The notes beneath the pieces were generated by a model. That model saw only the letters and a list, made by a program, of their open reading frames with translations, was not told the DNA's origin and ran no database searches. Shown in pieces: positions 1-10,129 of a stretch of DNA of 64,000 bases (positions are counted from its first letter, which is position 1; each line of letters starts with the position of its first letter). The translations under genes were made by a program, and so were the position numbers. Origin of the DNA: an uncultured Lachnospiraceae bacterium. Its GTDB lineage: Bacteria > Bacillota > Clostridia > Lachnospirales > Lachnospiraceae. The stretch covers positions 1 to 64,000 of the forward strand of contig CANRMI010000012.1 of NCBI GenBank assembly GCA_947631685.1, written 5' to 3'.

Positions 1-116
1 TTTTGGTTGGTTCGTTCTCTCTGAAAATTTCTCTCTTGAATTTTCAGGGCTGCATTGCTGTTCGGTTGTCAAGGTGCTGTGATTTCAAGGTAATTTCATT
101 GGAAGAAGTTACCTAA

Positions 117-205
117 CGGAGAAGGAGGGATTTGAACCCTCGCGCCGCTATTAACGACCTGCACCCTTTCCAGGGGTGTCCCTTCGACCTCTTGGGTACT
201 TCTCC
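117..205 (-). tRNA. tRNA-Ser (anticodon GGA)
   Basis: Reverse complement GGAGAAGTACCCAAGAGGTCGAAGGGACACCCCTGGAAAGGGTGC...GGGTTCAAATCCCTCCTTCTCC G: 7-bp acceptor stem, long variable arm, CTGGAAA anticodon loop, discriminator G; CCA not encoded. Confidence 0.95.
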
Positions 206-277
206 AAATAAGGTTGAAACCTTTTTTCATAATATGAAATTCCGTCGCAAGATGTGACGGGGAGAGGGTATCTCCAG

Positions 278-363
278 CGGAGAGGGTGGGATTCGAACCC
301 ACGCGCCTTTTAGGGCAAACGGTTTTCAAGACCGCCTCGTTATGACCGCTTCGATACCTCTCC
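278..363 (-). tRNA. tRNA-Ser (anticodon UGA)
   Basis: Reverse complement GGAGAGGTATCGAAGCGGTCATAACGAGGCGGTCTTGAAAACCG...GGGTTCGAATCCCACCCTCTCC G: class II tRNA with CTTGAAA anticodon loop and discriminator G; CCA not encoded. Confidence 0.95.
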
Positions 364-453: not shown

Positions 454-2442
454 TTAAATATTTGTTTTATAGATAAAATTCAGAAATTTAACGGTAAAAT
501 CCGCTTCTCCGCCATAGGCAAACATGCCCACCATGGCACCGGTAAAACGTTTTCCTTTTTTAAGGCCCTCATCGCACAGATAGTAAACTCTCTCTATTTC
601 TGCCACGTTTTCCCAGTCTCCGTCATCCACGCGGCAATAAAAGGCGCGGCGGATCTTTTCGGTCTTTACGGCAAATTCCATGCGGGCCCCAACATCCGCC
701 AGCCGTCTTTTCCCATGTACCTCATCCTGTTCCCCCACATGCTCCTTTACCTGCAGGTACATTCCGTCCTTTTCACACAAAAGTCCGCAGGACACCCAGG
801 TGTTTTCATCATAGTAGCAGATCAGTCCCGCTTCCTGCCCGGCCAGCCATTTTTGATCCTTTGACACTTCCATCGCAGCAGCGGCGGCAAAGTTGAAATG
901 CTCCTGTCTGCGCAGCAGGATATTGCGGGCTCCCACATCACTTAGGGGCAGGCGGCTTCCTTTAAGAAACAGGGCAGTCCCCTCCAGCCTGATACCGTCC
1001 GGTTCAGGCGGCCTCGGCGTCATCCACTCTAAAGACAGGCGGCCATCTTCTCTACAAAAATCCGGACGGGTATCCACCCTATCCCCATGGGGCAATATCC
1101 TGTTTGCTGTTTCCTTTGGCAAAACAGGGCGTTTCTGCAGTACGCTGGGACCTTGTACCAGCGGCCAGCCGTCGGCGCTCCACACAATCGGATCCAGCGC
1201 CGTTTCCCTGCCCAAAATACTGTATTCTCCCTCCAGCTTTCTTCCGCACAGATACACCATGTACCAGTTTCCATCCGGCGTCTGTACAGGCTTGCCGTGT
1301 CCGCAGCGCTGTATGGGCGCGGTTTCGTCCATCTGACGCAGGATCGGATTGTAGGGACAGGGTTCATACTCGCCAAAGAGCTCCTTAGAGCGGGATACAG
1401 TGATCCTGTGCCCTAAGCCCGTACCTCCTTCCGCCTCAAACAAATAATAATACCCGTCTTTTTTCAGCAAATGGGGGCCTTCCGGCGCTCTTTTGTAATC
1501 TCCGTAAAATAAAAGGCGGGCCTCCCCAATCTGCCGGTCTGCGTTTTCACTGATTTCAAAAATGCGGGCGCCCCGGTTTAAGAGCATATACCGCCTGCCG
1601 TCGTCGTCCGTAAAAATGGACGGATCGATCCCATCCTCATCCAGAAATACCGGTTTACTGTAAGGACCCTCCGGCTTATCGGAAGAAACCACCATTTGTT
1701 TCCGGTAGACCCTGCCCGTATCGTTGAGCCGGTAGGTGGCACAGATATAATATCTTCCTTTATAATAGGAAATATCCGGTGCCCAGTATCCTCTTCCACC
1801 CTCGAGCCCGTCCAATTTTGCCCACTCCGGATTGGTAATAGCGTAACCGATAATCTCCCAGTGTATCAGATCCCTGGAATGAGACACCGGTATGCAGGGG
1901 AAAAAAATAAAAGAGGAATTGACCATATAATAGTCCTCTCCCACCCGCAGAATGGAGGGATCCGGATAAAAGCCGGTGCGAATGGGGTTGCGGCAGGCCT
2001 CTTCATAGGAAAATCCCACCCTTTTTGCAAAATACGCTTCCATGCCCGTAAAATCCGCTTCGTCACAGGCATATTTTACATATTCTTCGCTGCCGCAGGC
2101 GGCCAGATGCGCAATATCAAAAGGCGTCAGCAAATCATTGTCCCCGAAGAGAGGGGACATCCCCACCCGCTCCACCAGATATTTCACCAGTTCTATATTT
2201 CCCGACATAACTCCATAGTGGAGAATATTGCGGTGAAGTCCGTCCGTTACGTTCATGCTGGCCCTGGAATATTCCACTATATAGCGTACAATGGGAAGAT
2301 TGCCTGTGCGGGCTGCCAGAAAGCTCATAGGCAGTCCTTCTTCGGTGCAGTCATCTATGACCGGCGGGTTTTCTATCAACAGCTCTTTTACCTGTTCCAA
2401 ATCTTTGGCCAGAATTGCCTGTTCCAACAATGCGCTCATCAT
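454..2442 (-). CDS. Ankyrin-repeat domain fused to glycoside hydrolase family 43 (beta-xylosidase/arabinofuranosidase-like) with C-terminal beta-sandwich
   Basis: N-terminal ankyrin-like motifs (GLPMSFLAARTGNLPIVRYIVE; HRNILHYGVMSGNIELVKYLVE; LTPFDIAHLAACGSEEYVKY), then GH43 motifs (FYPDPSILRVGEDYYMVNSSF, GYWAPDISYYKGRYY, DPSIFTDDDGRRYML, APEGPHLLKKDGYYYLFEAEGG). Start set to ATG at 2442 (SD GGGAGGAA), not the longer ORF start at 2529. Confidence 0.88.
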   Translation of the reverse strand: MMSALLEQAILAKDLEQVKELLIENPPVIDDCTEEGLPMSFLAARTGNLPIVRYIVEYSRASMNVTDGLHRNILHYGVMSGNIELVKYLVERVGMSPLFGDNDLLTPFDIAHLAACGSEEYVKYACDEADFTGMEAYFAKRVGFSYEEACRNPIRTGFYPDPSILRVGEDYYMVNSSFIFFPCIPVSHSRDLIHWEIIGYAITNPEWAKLDGLEGGRGYWAPDISYYKGRYYICATYRLNDTGRVYRKQMVVSSDKPEGPYSKPVFLDEDGIDPSIFTDDDGRRYMLLNRGARIFEISENADRQIGEARLLFYGDYKRAPEGPHLLKKDGYYYLFEAEGGTGLGHRITVSRSKELFGEYEPCPYNPILRQMDETAPIQRCGHGKPVQTPDGNWYMVYLCGRKLEGEYSILGRETALDPIVWSADGWPLVQGPSVLQKRPVLPKETANRILPHGDRVDTRPDFCREDGRLSLEWMTPRPPEPDGIRLEGTALFLKGSRLPLSDVGARNILLRRQEHFNFAAAAAMEVSKDQKWLAGQEAGLICYYDENTWVSCGLLCEKDGMYLQVKEHVGEQDEVHGKRRLADVGARMEFAVKTEKIRRAFYCRVDDGDWENVAEIERVYYLCDEGLKKGKRFTGAMVGMFAYGGEADFTVKFLNFIYKTNI

Positions 2443-3137
2443 TTCCTCCCTGTCCACTCTTCCAAAATCAATTCCGCGTATTCCCCGCCCAATTCCTTCA
2501 GGCCCCGGACCACCAGACCAGCAAAGCATACCGCGCCTTCATATTTCAAATGCGTATTGTCCTCTTTTCCCTCCGAATAAGCCGCATACTCGCCGGGTGC
2601 CAGATGCATGAACCATCGGATACTTTTCTCCGCGCCGGCACTTTCCATAATCTTTCTGCTCTTTTCATACAGATCCACCAACGCCACTTTTTCTTCATCG
2701 GCAGTCTTTTTCATAGCGGCCACGTATTCCCTATGGGCGCCTTCTCCCAGATGCCCCTCTTCGGTAAAACAGCGCCTCTCCAGGGGCGTGATCAATACCG
2801 GCTTCGCGCCATAGTTTCTTGCGGTTTCTATAAAGATCTTCAGGTTTTCCACATAGGTCCCAAAAGGATCCGTATATCTTGTGACATCCTGGATTTTTTC
2901 GTCATTGTGTCCGAACTGGATAAAGAGATAGTCCCCTTTCCCTATCTGCTCCTCAATGGGCTTCAGCCGTCCTTCATCCAAAAAGCTTTTTGTGCTCCTG
3001 CCATTTTTCGCGTAATTGCAGACACGGATATCTTCTCTTGTATATAAGGAAAATACCTGGCCGATACCGGTCTGGGGATAGGTGGTAATATCGTTGGTCT
3101 GCACAGTGGAATCCCCCGCCCAAAATATTCTTTTCAT
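2439..3137 (-). CDS. SGNH/GDSL hydrolase, rhamnogalacturonan acetylesterase-like
   Basis: MKRIFWAGDSTVQTND (GDS block), QFGHND block; stop overlaps start of the GH43 gene (ATGATGA). Confidence 0.85.
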   Translation of the reverse strand: MKRIFWAGDSTVQTNDITTYPQTGIGQVFSLYTREDIRVCNYAKNGRSTKSFLDEGRLKPIEEQIGKGDYLFIQFGHNDEKIQDVTRYTDPFGTYVENLKIFIETARNYGAKPVLITPLERRCFTEEGHLGEGAHREYVAAMKKTADEEKVALVDLYEKSRKIMESAGAEKSIRWFMHLAPGEYAAYSEGKEDNTHLKYEGAVCFAGLVVRGLKELGGEYAELILEEWTGRK

Positions 3138-3217: not shown

Positions 3218-4081
3218 TTATTCCTTTACCGCACCGATATTTACGCCCTTTACAAAATATTTCTGCAGGAACGGATACAGAATCATGAACGGGATGATCG
3301 CGATCATGATAGATGCATTCGCCAGCGTGGACGTGTTGATCTCGGTTGAAGGCGGCAGGTCACCGCTGCCGATCATGCTCTTTAACTGCTGCTGGAAGGT
3401 ATACAGTGAAGGCTTCATGATGTAGATGTTGGCTGCGGTATAGTCGTTCCATGCGCCAACCGCGAACATCAGACCAATGGAAGCCAGCGCCGCCTTGGAA
3501 AGAGGCAGCACAATCTTGAAGAAAATACCCATGGGCGAGCAGCCGTCAATACGGGCCGCTTCAAACAACCCCTGAGGAATGCCTTCAAAGAAGTTTCTCA
3601 TCAGCACCAGGTTATATACGTTGATACCATGCTTGACTACGATCGCCATCAGGTTGTTTACCAGTCCCAGCTGCTTGTAAACCAGGAACTCAGGAATCAT
3701 ACCGCCGCTGAATACCATGGTGATCAGCAGGAAATACGCAAAGAAATTACGTCCCGGCATTTCAAACTGGATCAGCACATAACCACCCAGAGTGGAAAGC
3801 ACCAGACCTAATAAAGTACCCAAAAGAGTGGTGATCACAGAGTTCAGCAGGGGCATATAGAGGTTGTTATAGGTTAAGATCCTCTTGTAACCCGCTATCG
3901 TAAATTCATAAGGCCACAGTCTCAAAGCCGCTACGGTCTTGGCATCCAGAGAGTCCACTATGACTTTCCAGATAGGCACCAATATCAGCAATCCGATCAA
4001 AATAAACAGCAGATAGTTGACAATGGGGAAAATCTTGATTTTTTTACGTCTTTTTACCGCAATCTTCGTATTCTCAGCCAT
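3218..4081 (-). CDS. Carbohydrate ABC transporter permease, LplC/YtcP type
   Basis: Polytopic; EAARIDGCSPMGIFFKIVLPLSKAAL (EAA loop); C-terminus YPFLQKYFVKGVNIGAVKE typical of this family. Confidence 0.9.
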   Translation of the reverse strand: MAENTKIAVKRRKKIKIFPIVNYLLFILIGLLILVPIWKVIVDSLDAKTVAALRLWPYEFTIAGYKRILTYNNLYMPLLNSVITTLLGTLLGLVLSTLGGYVLIQFEMPGRNFFAYFLLITMVFSGGMIPEFLVYKQLGLVNNLMAIVVKHGINVYNLVLMRNFFEGIPQGLFEAARIDGCSPMGIFFKIVLPLSKAALASIGLMFAVGAWNDYTAANIYIMKPSLYTFQQQLKSMIGSGDLPPSTEINTSTLANASIMIAIIPFMILYPFLQKYFVKGVNIGAVKE

Positions 4082-4092
4082 GTCCGTCCCTC

Positions 4093-5064
4093 CTATACAA
4101 TACCGCGGCCGCGTACTTTCTTACTTGCCCAGTTGCATATAAGCACCAGTACGCACCCCACCAATGATTTGAAAAGTCCAACCGCTGTGGTAAAGCCATA
4201 GTCAGAGGTTGCTCCGGCCGCAAGACCGGTACGGTAGATGTAGGTAGAGATAACATCCGCCACATCATTGACACCACGCTGCCAGAATACCAATACGGAT
4301 TCAAACAGGTTCATAACCTTTGCCAGGTTCAGGATCAATACGGTGATAATGGTATTGGCCAGTGCCGGCAGGGTAACATAGCGCATCTTCTGGAAACGGG
4401 TCGCGCCGTCAATGTCCGCGGCTTCATACAGCTCAGGATTGATTCCCGCCAGCGTTGCCAGGAATATAATGGTTCCCCAGCCCGTCTCTTTCCAGATATT
4501 AATGATATAGTATACGGGCCGCCACCATTTTGTATCGTTTAGGAAGTATATGTATTCTCCCTCTCCCAATATGCCCCAGCTCTGCAGGGCGGTGTTCACC
4601 ATACCGCTGGCAGTAGGCGCCAGGATCAGGCTGAAGATGGAAGCCGTTACTACCCAGGACATGAAGTGAGGTAAGTATATAACAGTCTGCAGAATCTTCT
4701 TTGCAAACAAATTCGCCATTTCATTTAACAATATAGAAACCACAACGGATGAAAATGTGGTAATAAGCAATTTAATGATACTCAATTCCAAAGTATTTTT
4801 GAAGGCAGTCAAAAACGCCTTTTGTTTAATGGGATCGGAAAACATATCATAGAAATTTTCCAATCCTACAAATGTAGGGGTACGCCCCACCTTATACTCA
4901 TAAAAAGCATAACGAATACCCAGCATGGGCCAATACTGTGTCAGGATGACAAAGATAAAAACAGGCAAAAACATGAGGTAAAAACCCCTGTGGTTCCAGA
5001 TTCTCTTGCTCAGAGGCTTTTTTATGACCTGAACGGTCCCTTCAGATTTATTCTTCTTGGCCAT
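4093..5064 (-). CDS. Carbohydrate ABC transporter permease, LplB type
   Basis: Polytopic; EAADIDGATRFQKMRYVTLPAL EAA motif; TSDYGFTTAVGLFKSLVG. Confidence 0.9.
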   Translation of the reverse strand: MAKKNKSEGTVQVIKKPLSKRIWNHRGFYLMFLPVFIFVILTQYWPMLGIRYAFYEYKVGRTPTFVGLENFYDMFSDPIKQKAFLTAFKNTLELSIIKLLITTFSSVVVSILLNEMANLFAKKILQTVIYLPHFMSWVVTASIFSLILAPTASGMVNTALQSWGILGEGEYIYFLNDTKWWRPVYYIINIWKETGWGTIIFLATLAGINPELYEAADIDGATRFQKMRYVTLPALANTIITVLILNLAKVMNLFESVLVFWQRGVNDVADVISTYIYRTGLAAGATSDYGFTTAVGLFKSLVGCVLVLICNWASKKVRGRGIV

Positions 5065-5185: not shown

Positions 5186-6823
5186 TTATTCTGCAGTATT
5201 CAGACTGTCTAATACTTCCTGTACCAGAGGGCCTGCCTGCTCTTCATAATAGGACATCCACTCGTCTACATCGCCGTTCTTTTCAATAACCTGGCTCATA
5301 ACTTCCTGCTGTACTTCCAGAATGGAAGGATTGTTTACGGAATAAACCTCGGAAGAAGGAGTAGCAGGTGCGGTTCTGCAGTTTGCAAGGAAATATTCGT
5401 TACCTGCATCAATGGAAGGATCAGCACTGGTAAAGCCATTGGTCAAAGGTGCGATAGCCAGTGCGGGATCGATGAAGTTCTTCTTCCATGCGGTAGCAGG
5501 GTCATTGGGGGTAGCCAGTAAATGGAACTGACCTTCCTCATAAGTCTTAGGCTCTGCGTCACCAATGGTAACGGTCTCTGCAGCGGTGGACCAGTGTACG
5601 CCTTCAGCGCCGTAGGTCCAAAGAGTCTGTACTACATCGCCGTCCATCATGGTCTCGATGAACAGATCGAAGATCTGCTGCTCACGGGTATTGCTGTCAT
5701 CGCCGTCGTTTAAGATAACCCATACAGGAGCGGTTCTGTCGATATAGCCGCCTACTGCTTTTACTTCATCGATAACAGGCAGGAATACGATCTCCTGATC
5801 GTCGCCTAAGTTCTTGTGTACATTGTCAACGGTGGTCTTGGTCCAGGAACCTGCCCAGTAAGCGTAGGCGCCACAGGAAGAGGTCTGGTCTGCGGACCAG
5901 AAGCCTTCACGTACGTCCTTGGTGGACATACCGGAGGTCATCGGGTTGATAACGCCGTCGTTGTAAGCTTTCTGCAGTCTTAACAGCGCTGCCTTGGTTG
6001 CATCGGTATCGAAACCGTCATACCATACACCGTCTTCACCCTGGGTAAACGCGGGATATGCGTCCTGCCAGAACTCGGGCAGATACTGAATGTAAGGGGT
6101 ATCGTCCAGCTTCGCGAATCCGGCTGCCGCGGTACCGTAGGTATCGTTCTTACCATTGCCGTCAGGATCCATGGTGGTGAATCTGGTAAGCATCTCATAG
6201 TAGTCATCAAAGGTCTTGATGTCATCTGTGCTCATGCCTACAGCATCCAGCCAGGACTTCTTAACATAAGTAATACAACCGTTGCCGTACGCGGGAGCGA
6301 AGCCGTAGAGTCTGCCGTTGATCTTCAACAGTTCATTGGTAGAGGTAGCGGTGATTCTGGAATAGAAATCCGCATTCTCATAAGCATCGGTCATATCCCA
6401 CAGATAGGAAGAGCCGTCCTCGTTGGTCAGAGCCGCGTAGGATTTGTACATTTCAGCGCTCATCAACAGAATGTCAGGCTTCTCACCTGCAGTCAGCAGA
6501 CGCTGAACAGTTTCTTTGTAGGAGTTGTGGTCCAACTGGTTGATCACCAGGTCAACGCCTACCGCGTCTTCCCACTGTTTCTCAAATTCAGCCTGACCGT
6601 TTTCCTGGGTTGCTGCCAGAGTACCGTCGATCCAGAACTCGATCTTGTCTACGGTAACATCTGTACTCTCTCCACCGTTGGAAGCAGCTTCATTGCCGTC
6701 TGCGGGAGTCGTGCCGCCGGTGCTTCCGCCGCCGTTGTTGTTGTCGGCATTGTCACCGCCGCAGCCTGCAAGGGTAGCTACCATAGCCGTGGCGAGAAGG
6801 ATAGATAAAATCTTCTTCTTCAT
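5186..6823 (-). CDS. Extracellular solute-binding lipoprotein of carbohydrate ABC transporter
   Basis: Signal peptide and lipobox MKKKILSILLATAMVATLAGCGG; ATG at 6823 with SD AGGAGGAAAG. Confidence 0.92.
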   Translation of the reverse strand: MKKKILSILLATAMVATLAGCGGDNADNNNGGGSTGGTTPADGNEAASNGGESTDVTVDKIEFWIDGTLAATQENGQAEFEKQWEDAVGVDLVINQLDHNSYKETVQRLLTAGEKPDILLMSAEMYKSYAALTNEDGSSYLWDMTDAYENADFYSRITATSTNELLKINGRLYGFAPAYGNGCITYVKKSWLDAVGMSTDDIKTFDDYYEMLTRFTTMDPDGNGKNDTYGTAAAGFAKLDDTPYIQYLPEFWQDAYPAFTQGEDGVWYDGFDTDATKAALLRLQKAYNDGVINPMTSGMSTKDVREGFWSADQTSSCGAYAYWAGSWTKTTVDNVHKNLGDDQEIVFLPVIDEVKAVGGYIDRTAPVWVILNDGDDSNTREQQIFDLFIETMMDGDVVQTLWTYGAEGVHWSTAAETVTIGDAEPKTYEEGQFHLLATPNDPATAWKKNFIDPALAIAPLTNGFTSADPSIDAGNEYFLANCRTAPATPSSEVYSVNNPSILEVQQEVMSQVIEKNGDVDEWMSYYEEQAGPLVQEVLDSLNTAE

Positions 6824-7028: not shown

Positions 7029-7094
7029 TTTCTTAATGCTAAAAAATTGTACGCTGCGGGAGCCTTTGAGGGCTCCGCTGAGAGAGGGATTTCT

Positions 7095-8594
7095 TTGATT
7101 TTACATAGAAAACAAGACGAACAAAATATGCCATCTGCCCCCCCTGGGAGAAAGCTGCGGCTTCTTCTCAACCTTTCCGGCGGTGTTTTTCTGCTTTTAC
7201 TGCTTCTCTTTGGGGTGTTGCTGTACTTTCCGGTGCTTTCCCATATGAGTGCCGCCCGGCAGGCCGCCTGCCTTTTCCTTCTGGTTCTCATCGCCGGCAG
7301 CGGTATCTGCTTTTTGCGGCTGCTCTCCCGGCTCTGCGTGCGGCCCCTTACGGAGATGGAGGAGCAGCTGCGGCAGGCCAATGCGGAAAAAAATCTGCTG
7401 CAGGAGGCGGCCGACCGGCAGAAGCCCCTTCTGGCGGCCTCCTACCTGAAACGGCTTATGAGCGGTCTTTCTTCCCCGGAGGAGATCGCGTACATCCTGG
7501 AATATCTGGAGCTGCCCAAAGCCCCGGTAGTATACAACGTGGTCTACGCCGTAACCTATCACAATACGGAAGCGAAGCCTCCCATAAAAGAACCCATTTT
7601 GTCCGACGCGTCCGAAGAACCTCCTGAGCGCGGCGATTTAGCGGAAAAAGCCCTGCGCCGGTATTTCGGGGAGCCTTTCCGCTGTTATTCCCCGGAAGCG
7701 CGCATATACGCCATCCTGCTCTGGGGGGACGACGGAGAAGAGCTGCTCATGCGGACTCAGGAAACCATAGTCCAACTGCACGAGTTTCTTATTCAGGAGC
7801 ATGGCATCTGGCTTTTCGCGGGTATGGGACATGCCACCGAAAATCCCGCCAATATCTGGGAGTGCTATGAGCAGGCCATGGAGGCCGCCGGCCATTCCCA
7901 CAAAAATTATATTTTCTATCCTTATGAAATCATGGAAAAAAGCTCCGACGCTTTCTATTATCCGCCGGAGCTTTCCACCAAACTGATCCATTTTATCACT
8001 GCCGGCAGCAAGGAGCAGGTCACCGAGCTCTTTACCCTGATCTATCAGGAAAATATGGAAGAGCGCTCCCTCCCGCTAAATCTGCTGCGCTATCTGATGC
8101 AGGACATCCGGAATACCCTTTTAAAGGCCCGCTTCGCCCTGCCTGCGGAAACGGATCCCGAGAAGCTGCGGCAGCTGGACAAAAAATTTGAAGAGCATCT
8201 TTCCTTTAAGCTGTGTGAGGACCTGGCCCTTTCTCTCTGCGAACTGTTCCAGAAAGAAAACAAAAACCAGAGCCTCTCTTCCGCTATCGAAAAATATATC
8301 CATACCCACTATCAGGATCCGTCCCTGGGCTTAAATAAGATTTCGGACGAATTTCAGATCTCGGAGAGCTATTTCTCCCATATGTTCAAGGAAAAAACCG
8401 GCGTAAACTTTTCCGTTTATCTGGAGGCCCTGCGGATGCGGGAAGCGGCCAGGCTGGTGAGAAACAGCAGCACAAATCTGAGCGAGCTCTATGTGGAAGT
8501 CGGATACAACAACCCGGCCACTTTCCGCCGGGCATTCAAAAAGATCTATGGGGTAACTCCCAGCGCCATGCGGGAAAACGCCGCAAAACATTAA
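7095..8594 (+). CDS. Membrane-anchored AraC-family transcriptional regulator (YesN-like C-terminus)
   Basis: Two hydrophobic segments near the N-terminus, HAMP-like RPLTEMEEQLRQANAEK, C-terminal AraC HTH (NKISDEFQISESYFSHMFKEKTGVNFSVYLEALRMREAARLV...YNNPATFRRAFKKIYGVTPSAMR). Start uncertain: TTG 7047, TTG 7095 (SD GAGAGGG) or ATG 7128. Confidence 0.85.
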   Translation: MILHRKQDEQNMPSAPPGRKLRLLLNLSGGVFLLLLLLFGVLLYFPVLSHMSAARQAACLFLLVLIAGSGICFLRLLSRLCVRPLTEMEEQLRQANAEKNLLQEAADRQKPLLAASYLKRLMSGLSSPEEIAYILEYLELPKAPVVYNVVYAVTYHNTEAKPPIKEPILSDASEEPPERGDLAEKALRRYFGEPFRCYSPEARIYAILLWGDDGEELLMRTQETIVQLHEFLIQEHGIWLFAGMGHATENPANIWECYEQAMEAAGHSHKNYIFYPYEIMEKSSDAFYYPPELSTKLIHFITAGSKEQVTELFTLIYQENMEERSLPLNLLRYLMQDIRNTLLKARFALPAETDPEKLRQLDKKFEEHLSFKLCEDLALSLCELFQKENKNQSLSSAIEKYIHTHYQDPSLGLNKISDEFQISESYFSHMFKEKTGVNFSVYLEALRMREAARLVRNSSTNLSELYVEVGYNNPATFRRAFKKIYGVTPSAMRENAAKH

Positions 8595-8608: not shown

Positions 8609-10129
8609 ATGCAGAAAACAAAAAGCCTCGATCACAACTTATCAAAAGACCTTCCCCGCACCGCTCCCGCGGAAGCGGGAGTACCCGCGGCCGCCATTCT
8701 GCGGTTTTTGGACAGACTGGAATATTACCAGGTCAACCTTCACAGTCTGCTGCTCATGCGCCACGGCAAACTCATTGCCGAAGGCTATTACGCGCCCAAC
8801 AGCCCTTCTCGTCTTCACCGTATGTTCTCCGTGTGCAAAACCTTAAATGCTCTGGCCGTGGGACTGCTGGCGGAAGAGGGGCGCCTTAGCCTGGATGACA
8901 GGATCGCGGACTATTTTCCGGACAAGGTCCCCGCAGATGCCCACCCCTGGATTCGGGAAATGACCATCCGCAATCTGCTGATGATGCGCACCTGTCACGC
9001 CTCCACTACCTATAAATATGATATTCACAAAGAGTGGGTGGAAAGCTTTTTCACCACGCCGCCCACCCACAAGCCTGGCACCGTATTCCACTATGATACC
9101 TCAGCGGCCCATGTGCTCTGCGTTCTGACAGAGAGACTCTCCGGGATGCCTATGCTGGATTATTTAAAGGAAAAAGCTCTTAGAAAGATCGGCTGGTCAG
9201 AAAACTCCTATATGATCAAAAATGAATTTGGGGATTCCCACGGAGGCAGCGGACTCATGGCCACTTCCGAGGACCTGCTGCGGCTGGGTATGCTCCTTAT
9301 ACAGAAAGGCCGCTGGCAGGACGAGCAGCTTCTGCCTGCTTCTTTTGTGGAGGAAATGACCTCCTGCTTAACGCCCAACGCATTGACAGCCGGAGTCATC
9401 AGTGAAACCCAGGGGTACGGTTATCAGATATGGCGTACCAGACACGATGGCTTTGCCTGCTACGGACTGGGCGGCCAGCTCGTCGTCTGTCTGCCCAAAG
9501 AGGACCTGATCTTAGTCACTACGGCGGACACACAGGGCTGCGGCGGCGGCAACGACTTTATCTACAATTGTCTTTACGAAGAGATCCTGCCGGTGCTGGA
9601 CACCACTCTGACGAAAGAGGAGGAAGCGCAGACTGCCTTTCTGCAGCAAAAGCTCGCTACTCTGATCATGGCTCCCGTCAAAACAAGGTGCCGGACGCTC
9701 CTCGACGAAAGGTACAACGCCTTGTTTTTAAACAACGCTACCTGTGGACATATCCAGCATAAAATTTTCAAACTGGAGAAAAATCCCCAGGGTTTTACGG
9801 ATCTTTCCCTTACTCTTTTCGGGAAAGACGGTTTTCTCGCCTATACCCGGAACGGTGTTCCCTGCAAGCTCAGATTTTCTCTTGACCGCTGCCAGCCGGA
9901 TACCTTTCCTGAATATAATATGTACTGCGCAAACAGCGCCATGTGGCTTGCGCCCGACACCTTTTACATCAGATCCAATCTTTTAGACACCAGCGTAGGC
10001 TCTGTACAGATTGAGCTGGTCTTTGGAGATGAGGACGTGACCGTCTTTATGAAAAAGACAGAAGAAACCCTGTTTCAAGAATACGCGGGACATTTTTACG
10101 GCCGGAGTGAGGTTTACTTTTCCGAATAG
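8609..10129 (+). CDS. Serine hydrolase, beta-lactamase class C-like
   Basis: SVCK (SxxK) motif in RMFSVCKTLNALAVGLLAEEGRLSLDDRIADYFPD; no signal peptide apparent. Confidence 0.85.
   Translation: MQKTKSLDHNLSKDLPRTAPAEAGVPAAAILRFLDRLEYYQVNLHSLLLMRHGKLIAEGYYAPNSPSRLHRMFSVCKTLNALAVGLLAEEGRLSLDDRIADYFPDKVPADAHPWIREMTIRNLLMMRTCHASTTYKYDIHKEWVESFFTTPPTHKPGTVFHYDTSAAHVLCVLTERLSGMPMLDYLKEKALRKIGWSENSYMIKNEFGDSHGGSGLMATSEDLLRLGMLLIQKGRWQDEQLLPASFVEEMTSCLTPNALTAGVISETQGYGYQIWRTRHDGFACYGLGGQLVVCLPKEDLILVTTADTQGCGGGNDFIYNCLYEEILPVLDTTLTKEEEAQTAFLQQKLATLIMAPVKTRCRTLLDERYNALFLNNATCGHIQHKIFKLEKNPQGFTDLSLTLFGKDGFLAYTRNGVPCKLRFSLDRCQPDTFPEYNMYCANSAMWLAPDTFYIRSNLLDTSVGSVQIELVFGDEDVTVFMKKTEETLFQEYAGHFYGRSEVYFSE

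Follow-up and report, generated by a model that had tools for sequence, protein, structure and literature searches.

A 662-residue protein encoded in the window, the 64,000-nucleotide stretch of Lachnospiraceae DNA analysed here, carries an N-terminal head of ankyrin repeats joined in one frame to a complete GH43 glycosidase and its C-terminal beta-sandwich. The usual accessory modules of glycosidases are carbohydrate-binding or beta-sandwich domains. The ankyrin-GH43 architecture exists and recurs, and the literature that we searched apparently does not describe it; many Lachnospiraceae and some other Clostridia have conserved it, and it is no oddity of the window genome. Our preferred reading, to which we assign a probability of roughly one half, is that the protein is a cytosolic GH43 exo-glycosidase for importer-supplied oligosaccharides, and that its head is an integral, rigidly attached accessory domain rather than a flexible tether for an esterase.

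The gene lies on the minus strand (Table 1); a plus-strand reading of 454-2442 contains 6 stops and was rejected. Immediately 5' of the ATG at 2442 the sequence reads AGGGAGGAA, in keeping with the good Shine-Dalgarno site reported by an earlier, sequence-only reading of this DNA. That reading had also placed ankyrin repeats, a complete GH43 domain and a C-terminal sandwich in a single frame, and Pfam matches to Ank_2, Glyco_hydro_43 and GH43_C2 within the 662 residues bear it out. No signal peptide is visible in the sequence, again as described, since the N-terminus of the protein is itself the first ankyrin helix. A pair of tRNA-Ser genes (GGA and TGA anticodons; 116-363, minus strand) lies just downstream.

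The lack of a significant ankyrin match in residues 1-140 had been named beforehand as grounds for abandoning the assignment. The Ank_2 match found there is significant (4.3e-11; 43.6 bits against a cut-off of 27.3, residues 7-94), and the head additionally matches Ank_4 (3e-9), Ank (9e-7) and Ank_3 (2e-6). Ankyrin chains in the PDB, including ankyrin-1 and DARPins, match residues 13-94 by phmmer (1e-18) and are matched by the head profile at 5e-49. An AlphaFold model computed from an alignment of 79 relatives (mean pLDDT 91, pTM 0.90; pLDDT 86-98 across the head) resolves the head into the helix pairs 2-11/15-24, 39-46/49-58, 73-80/83-93 and 107-115/131-142. Thus the ankyrin nature of the head stands, and the earlier count of "about three" repeats gives way to four helix pairs, which were found again in a model of the L. 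phytofermentans orthologue built on a shallower alignment (pTM 0.84). Residues 114-128 form a clade-specific insert that is missing from 70 of the 79 relatives.

The enzyme part is an ordinary GH43. The PF04616 match spans residues 151-427 and profile positions 2-288 of 288, and phmmer aligns residues 143-646 with GH43 structures (3e-137), which are xylosidases and arabinofuranosidases, the best being 6ms2. Foldseek superposes the model on the five-bladed propeller of 6ms3 with a TM score of 0.91 by target. The putative catalytic residues, assigned by homology, are D161 (Asp base), D273 (Asp pKa modulator) and E321 (Glu acid); D161 is kept in 79/79 relatives, and D273 and E321 in 78/79 each, with an X in one.

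Table 1. Features of the ankyrin-GH43 gene and its operon in the window
Feature	Position	Strand	Basis or remark
Ankyrin-GH43-GH43_C2 gene	454..2442	-	662 aa plus stop; sequence, translation, Pfam
GH43_C2 beta-sandwich, residues 466-660	463..1047	-	Pfam 7.8e-32 (466-658)
GH43 catalytic propeller, residues 152-432	1147..1989	-	Pfam 8.8e-81; Foldseek to 6ms3
Fixed-length head/enzyme junction, residues 143-151	1990..2016	-	alignment of 79 relatives
Ankyrin head, residues 1-142	2017..2442	-	four helix pairs; Pfam Ank_2 4.3e-11, AlphaFold helices
YIVEYSRASMN, residues 54-64	2251..2283	-	best-conserved part of the head within the window's subgroup
Shine-Dalgarno-like AGGGAGGAAA	2443..2452	-	abuts ATG; read from sequence
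GDSL/SGNH esterase	2439..3137	-	no signal peptide; stop overlaps ankyrin-GH43 start; Pfam Lipase_GDSL_2 3.5e-11
ABC importer permease 1	3218..4081	-	BPD_transp_1 1.2e-12
ABC importer permease 2	4093..5064	-	BPD_transp_1 2.2e-14
Probable lipoprotein solute-binding protein	5186..6823	-	lipobox MKKKILSILLATAMVATLAGCGG; position before permeases kept in orthologous loci
AraC-type regulator	7047..8594	+	divergent from operon; HTH_18 3.5e-21

The attachment of the head is constant. Exactly 8 residues separate G143 from N152 in 79/79 relatives, and repeats 2-3 are free of indels throughout this set, whereas the linker region between GH43 and C2 is variable (18 to 114); one orthologue (L014:1480-3672, plus strand) carries a tandem NPETNQEV-like repeat inserted near that linker. 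The fixed junction, the indel-free repeats and the pTM of 0.90 together suggest that head and enzyme form a rigid unit, with head-body contacts that are predicted from the pTM only. Over 43 pairs, many of them related and some with dS near saturation, the median dN/dS was lowest for GH43 (0.04), followed by the head (0.09) and C2 (0.13), and the head is, by these comparisons, under purifying selection. The stretch EYSRAS, which follows helix 2 of repeat 2, is one that we take to be non-consensus for ankyrin. Its apparently absolute conservation in sequence set A3 was set aside, that set having been partly selected by YIVEYSRASMN itself; among 41 heads gathered without that selection, E57 was kept in 37/40, Y58 in 35/40, Y54 in 34/40 and S59 in 32/40. 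Covariation between head and enzyme showed no overall enrichment (ankyrin-GH43 0.85x) in an analysis underpowered at Neff 59, although individual pairs (D109-R284, for example) seem suggestive.

How widespread the fusion is had been left as a question by the sequence-only reading: it recurs in Lachnospiraceae and is present in another clostridial family. It occurs in 12/61 genomes of the same genus, and a search with the head profile (A2) found the head in 30/397 genomes of the family and in the second clostridial family; at 10 class-level loci, too, the head sits on this GH43. A scan of the GTDB species collection for the head yielded 139 relatives or loci. Among the best 80 of these, almost all are labelled Lachnospiraceae or other Clostridia, and head-bearing members include Lachnoclostridium phytofermentans, Lachnospira multipara, L. 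pectinoschiza, Anaerocolumna aminovalerica and [Clostridium] fimetarium. The same GH43 continues from the head in 133/133 ORFs examined, a count in which some loci are one gene fetched twice. When the whole protein was searched against the 397 genomes, the best GH43 matches (49-64% identity) all carried the head and those at 43-49% identity lacked it, except for G442, which is diverged (47% identity) yet headed, and G253, in which an insert interrupts the head. In the tree, the head-less GH43 group forms one branch (support 100/100) apart from all headed sequences. The simplest reading of these sequences is that the head was probably gained once, in an importer-linked GH43 lineage, in a tree whose root is not fixed.

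In the window the gene belongs to an operon whose composition, with two permeases, a lipoprotein, an AraC regulator, an esterase and GH43, in a gene order kept in relatives, is that of a Gram-positive glycan utilisation operon. The coupling to an SGNH esterase and an importer operon that had been proposed for it is confirmed by an ATGA overlap between its start codon and the esterase stop and by the permeases upstream on the same strand. The lipoprotein (5186..6823) had no Pfam match. The esterase contains GDST, GHND and DNTHL motifs, as read from its sequence, and is similar to YxiM and to rhamnogalacturonan acetylesterase in the PDB (1deo, 1e-7); NCBIfam PaeY matches it at 2e-22 and 79.5 bits, below the cut-off of 1000. 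By sequence, it resembles rhamnogalacturonan/pectin acetylesterases. A gene for a beta-lactamase-fold serine hydrolase (8609-10129, plus strand) adjoins the AraC regulator, and similar genes flank several orthologous operons. Across relatives the recurrent order is lipoprotein, permease, permease, sometimes the esterase, sometimes a second GH43 ('A'), and then the ankyrin-GH43. GH28, a GH88-like hydrolase, pectinesterase and UxaC (glucuronate isomerase) lie near orthologues in many or several loci, and as neighbours they indicate pectin. No pectinase adjoins the window's own operon, so that the pectin reading draws on the orthologous loci and on the esterase.

For substrate, cellular site and head function alike, we infer the following. 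The adjacent ABC importer would bring in acetylated pectic or hemicellulosic oligosaccharides, which the coupled esterase would deacetylate and which the GH43, of arabinofuranosidase and/or xylosidase type, would trim in the cytosol as an exo-glycosidase. The head would pack on the enzyme's own body, where it would stabilise the enzyme or influence how the enzyme assembles or how substrate enters. A head without any function, the neutral passenger of an accidental fusion, is disfavoured and very improbable: the head does evolve faster than the catalytic domain, but its dN/dS of about 0.09, its constant repeat and junction lengths and its retention in the close homologues detected all argue against neutrality.

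Ankyrin repeats are classic protein-binding modules, and retention of the head therefore also fits docking to some partner. The sequence-only reading had suggested that the head scaffolds the enzyme with the esterase encoded just upstream, for which the ATGA overlap in the window speaks. The bifunctional GH43-CE of Bacteroides eggerthii (6mly) shows that such activities can be joined, although there GH43 and esterase activity are fused covalently in a protein that has no ankyrin, whereas the window's esterase is a separate gene. However, of the 74 collection loci that extend at least 3 kb upstream of the gene, only 39 have an esterase upstream in the same orientation. None was found there in the other 35, including those of Lachnospira, where the head is retained and an esterase gene of this type is absent from the cluster; it is also missing from most of the congeneric loci among L007-L014. 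As a general role of the head, scaffolding of the esterase thus lacks support, and docking of this kind is quite improbable. The importer permeases are more constant, being found upstream on the same strand in 51/74 loci, and a link to the transporter is possible. The more specific proposal that the head anchors the enzyme to the importer's cytosolic face (permease or ATPase), channelling oligosaccharides, gains from eleven inspected loci of head-less enzymes (B), which are mostly solitary, for example beside groEL, and stand apart from such importers. Yet about one third of headed loci have no adjacent permease, other glycosidases of these operons do without a head, and clade and context are confounded, and we regard such anchoring as unlikely.

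Docking of the enzyme onto the partner GH43 A, so that the two would attack one oligosaccharide in turn as a complex, is a tentative alternative. A is present in 26/30 head-positive versus 22/367 other family genomes (Fisher 1.5e-23) and directly upstream in 29/74 loci, and in four genomes (L159, L160, L162 and L163 of G104, G449, G253 and G330) single polypeptides of 1131-1189 aa have the order A-C2-Ank-B-C2, with the head at the seam and its first ankyrin repeat unrecognised. In G152 the frame of such an A-Ank-B fusion is broken, and in the window genome a lone A-type GH43 lies on another contig (L002; G000:C9:55181-56671), apart from the ankyrin-GH43 operon. Against docking to A, the same partner is equally frequent with B that has no head (11/12 genomes with only head-less B; 11/355 with neither), A and head-less B are fused without any ankyrin in one 1051-aa ORF of G004 (L170:4667-7819, plus strand), and the head is retained even where A and B are already covalently joined. 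A and B belong together, and the first two of these observations show that the head is not needed for their pairing. Under a wider proposal, which we hold to be doubtful, Clostridia would use the head as a dedicated module for assembling an importer-linked glycosidase complex in the cytosol; the head would join both GH43s, and perhaps the importer, and pectic oligosaccharides would thus be processed as they enter the cell. Our preference remains the rigidly attached accessory domain.

Among solved enzymes, BlXynB of Bacillus licheniformis (6ms2/6ms3) is the closest by fold, sharing the propeller, the C2 sandwich and the catalytic residues (43% identity over about 510 residues; TM 0.91 by target), but it has no ankyrin head. 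BoGH43A and BoGH43B of Bacteroides ovatus (5jow, 5joz; TM about 0.90 by target) likewise represent two related GH43s per utilisation system and also lack ankyrin, whereas the two clostridial enzymes appear to be cytosolic and are in some genomes fused into a single polypeptide. Ankyrin-1 and the DARPins share the repeat fold and consensus of the head, which differs from them in its non-consensus EYSRAS stretch and its fixed junction to an enzyme. The sequence-only reading had allowed that the fusion might be a common architecture of known function; it is indeed recurrent, but searches for ankyrin with GH43, beta-xylosidase, domain architecture or CAZyme fusion returned no paper that describes it or its function. 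The main text of a C. phytofermentans CAZyme study (PMC4230839) makes no mention of GH43 or ankyrin, and a Butyrivibrio pectin study (PMC6344614) mentions GH43 beside importers and no ankyrin. A head exclusive to one GH43 lineage offers a testable example of an intracellular glycosidase that has taken on a fold known for protein interaction; the protein may shed light on how the cytosolic end of pectin use is organised in gut Lachnospiraceae, and a family now recognised by domains only gains a concrete functional question.

Some loci were considered individually. L048 is not headed and belongs to the head-less group. L182 of G098 (1478-2959, plus strand) encodes a head-less GH43 on a long branch, with 53% identity to the window enzyme; it may reflect loss of the head or a separate origin. 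Its neighbours look foreign; contamination or transfer is possible. L181, a candidate head without GH43, was a weak match and was rejected as an unrelated ankyrin protein; its ORF (1162-2328, plus strand) lies behind a toxin-like ORF and has N-terminal ankyrin repeats followed by a second half that, by eye, is SUFU-type (immunity-like) in appearance.
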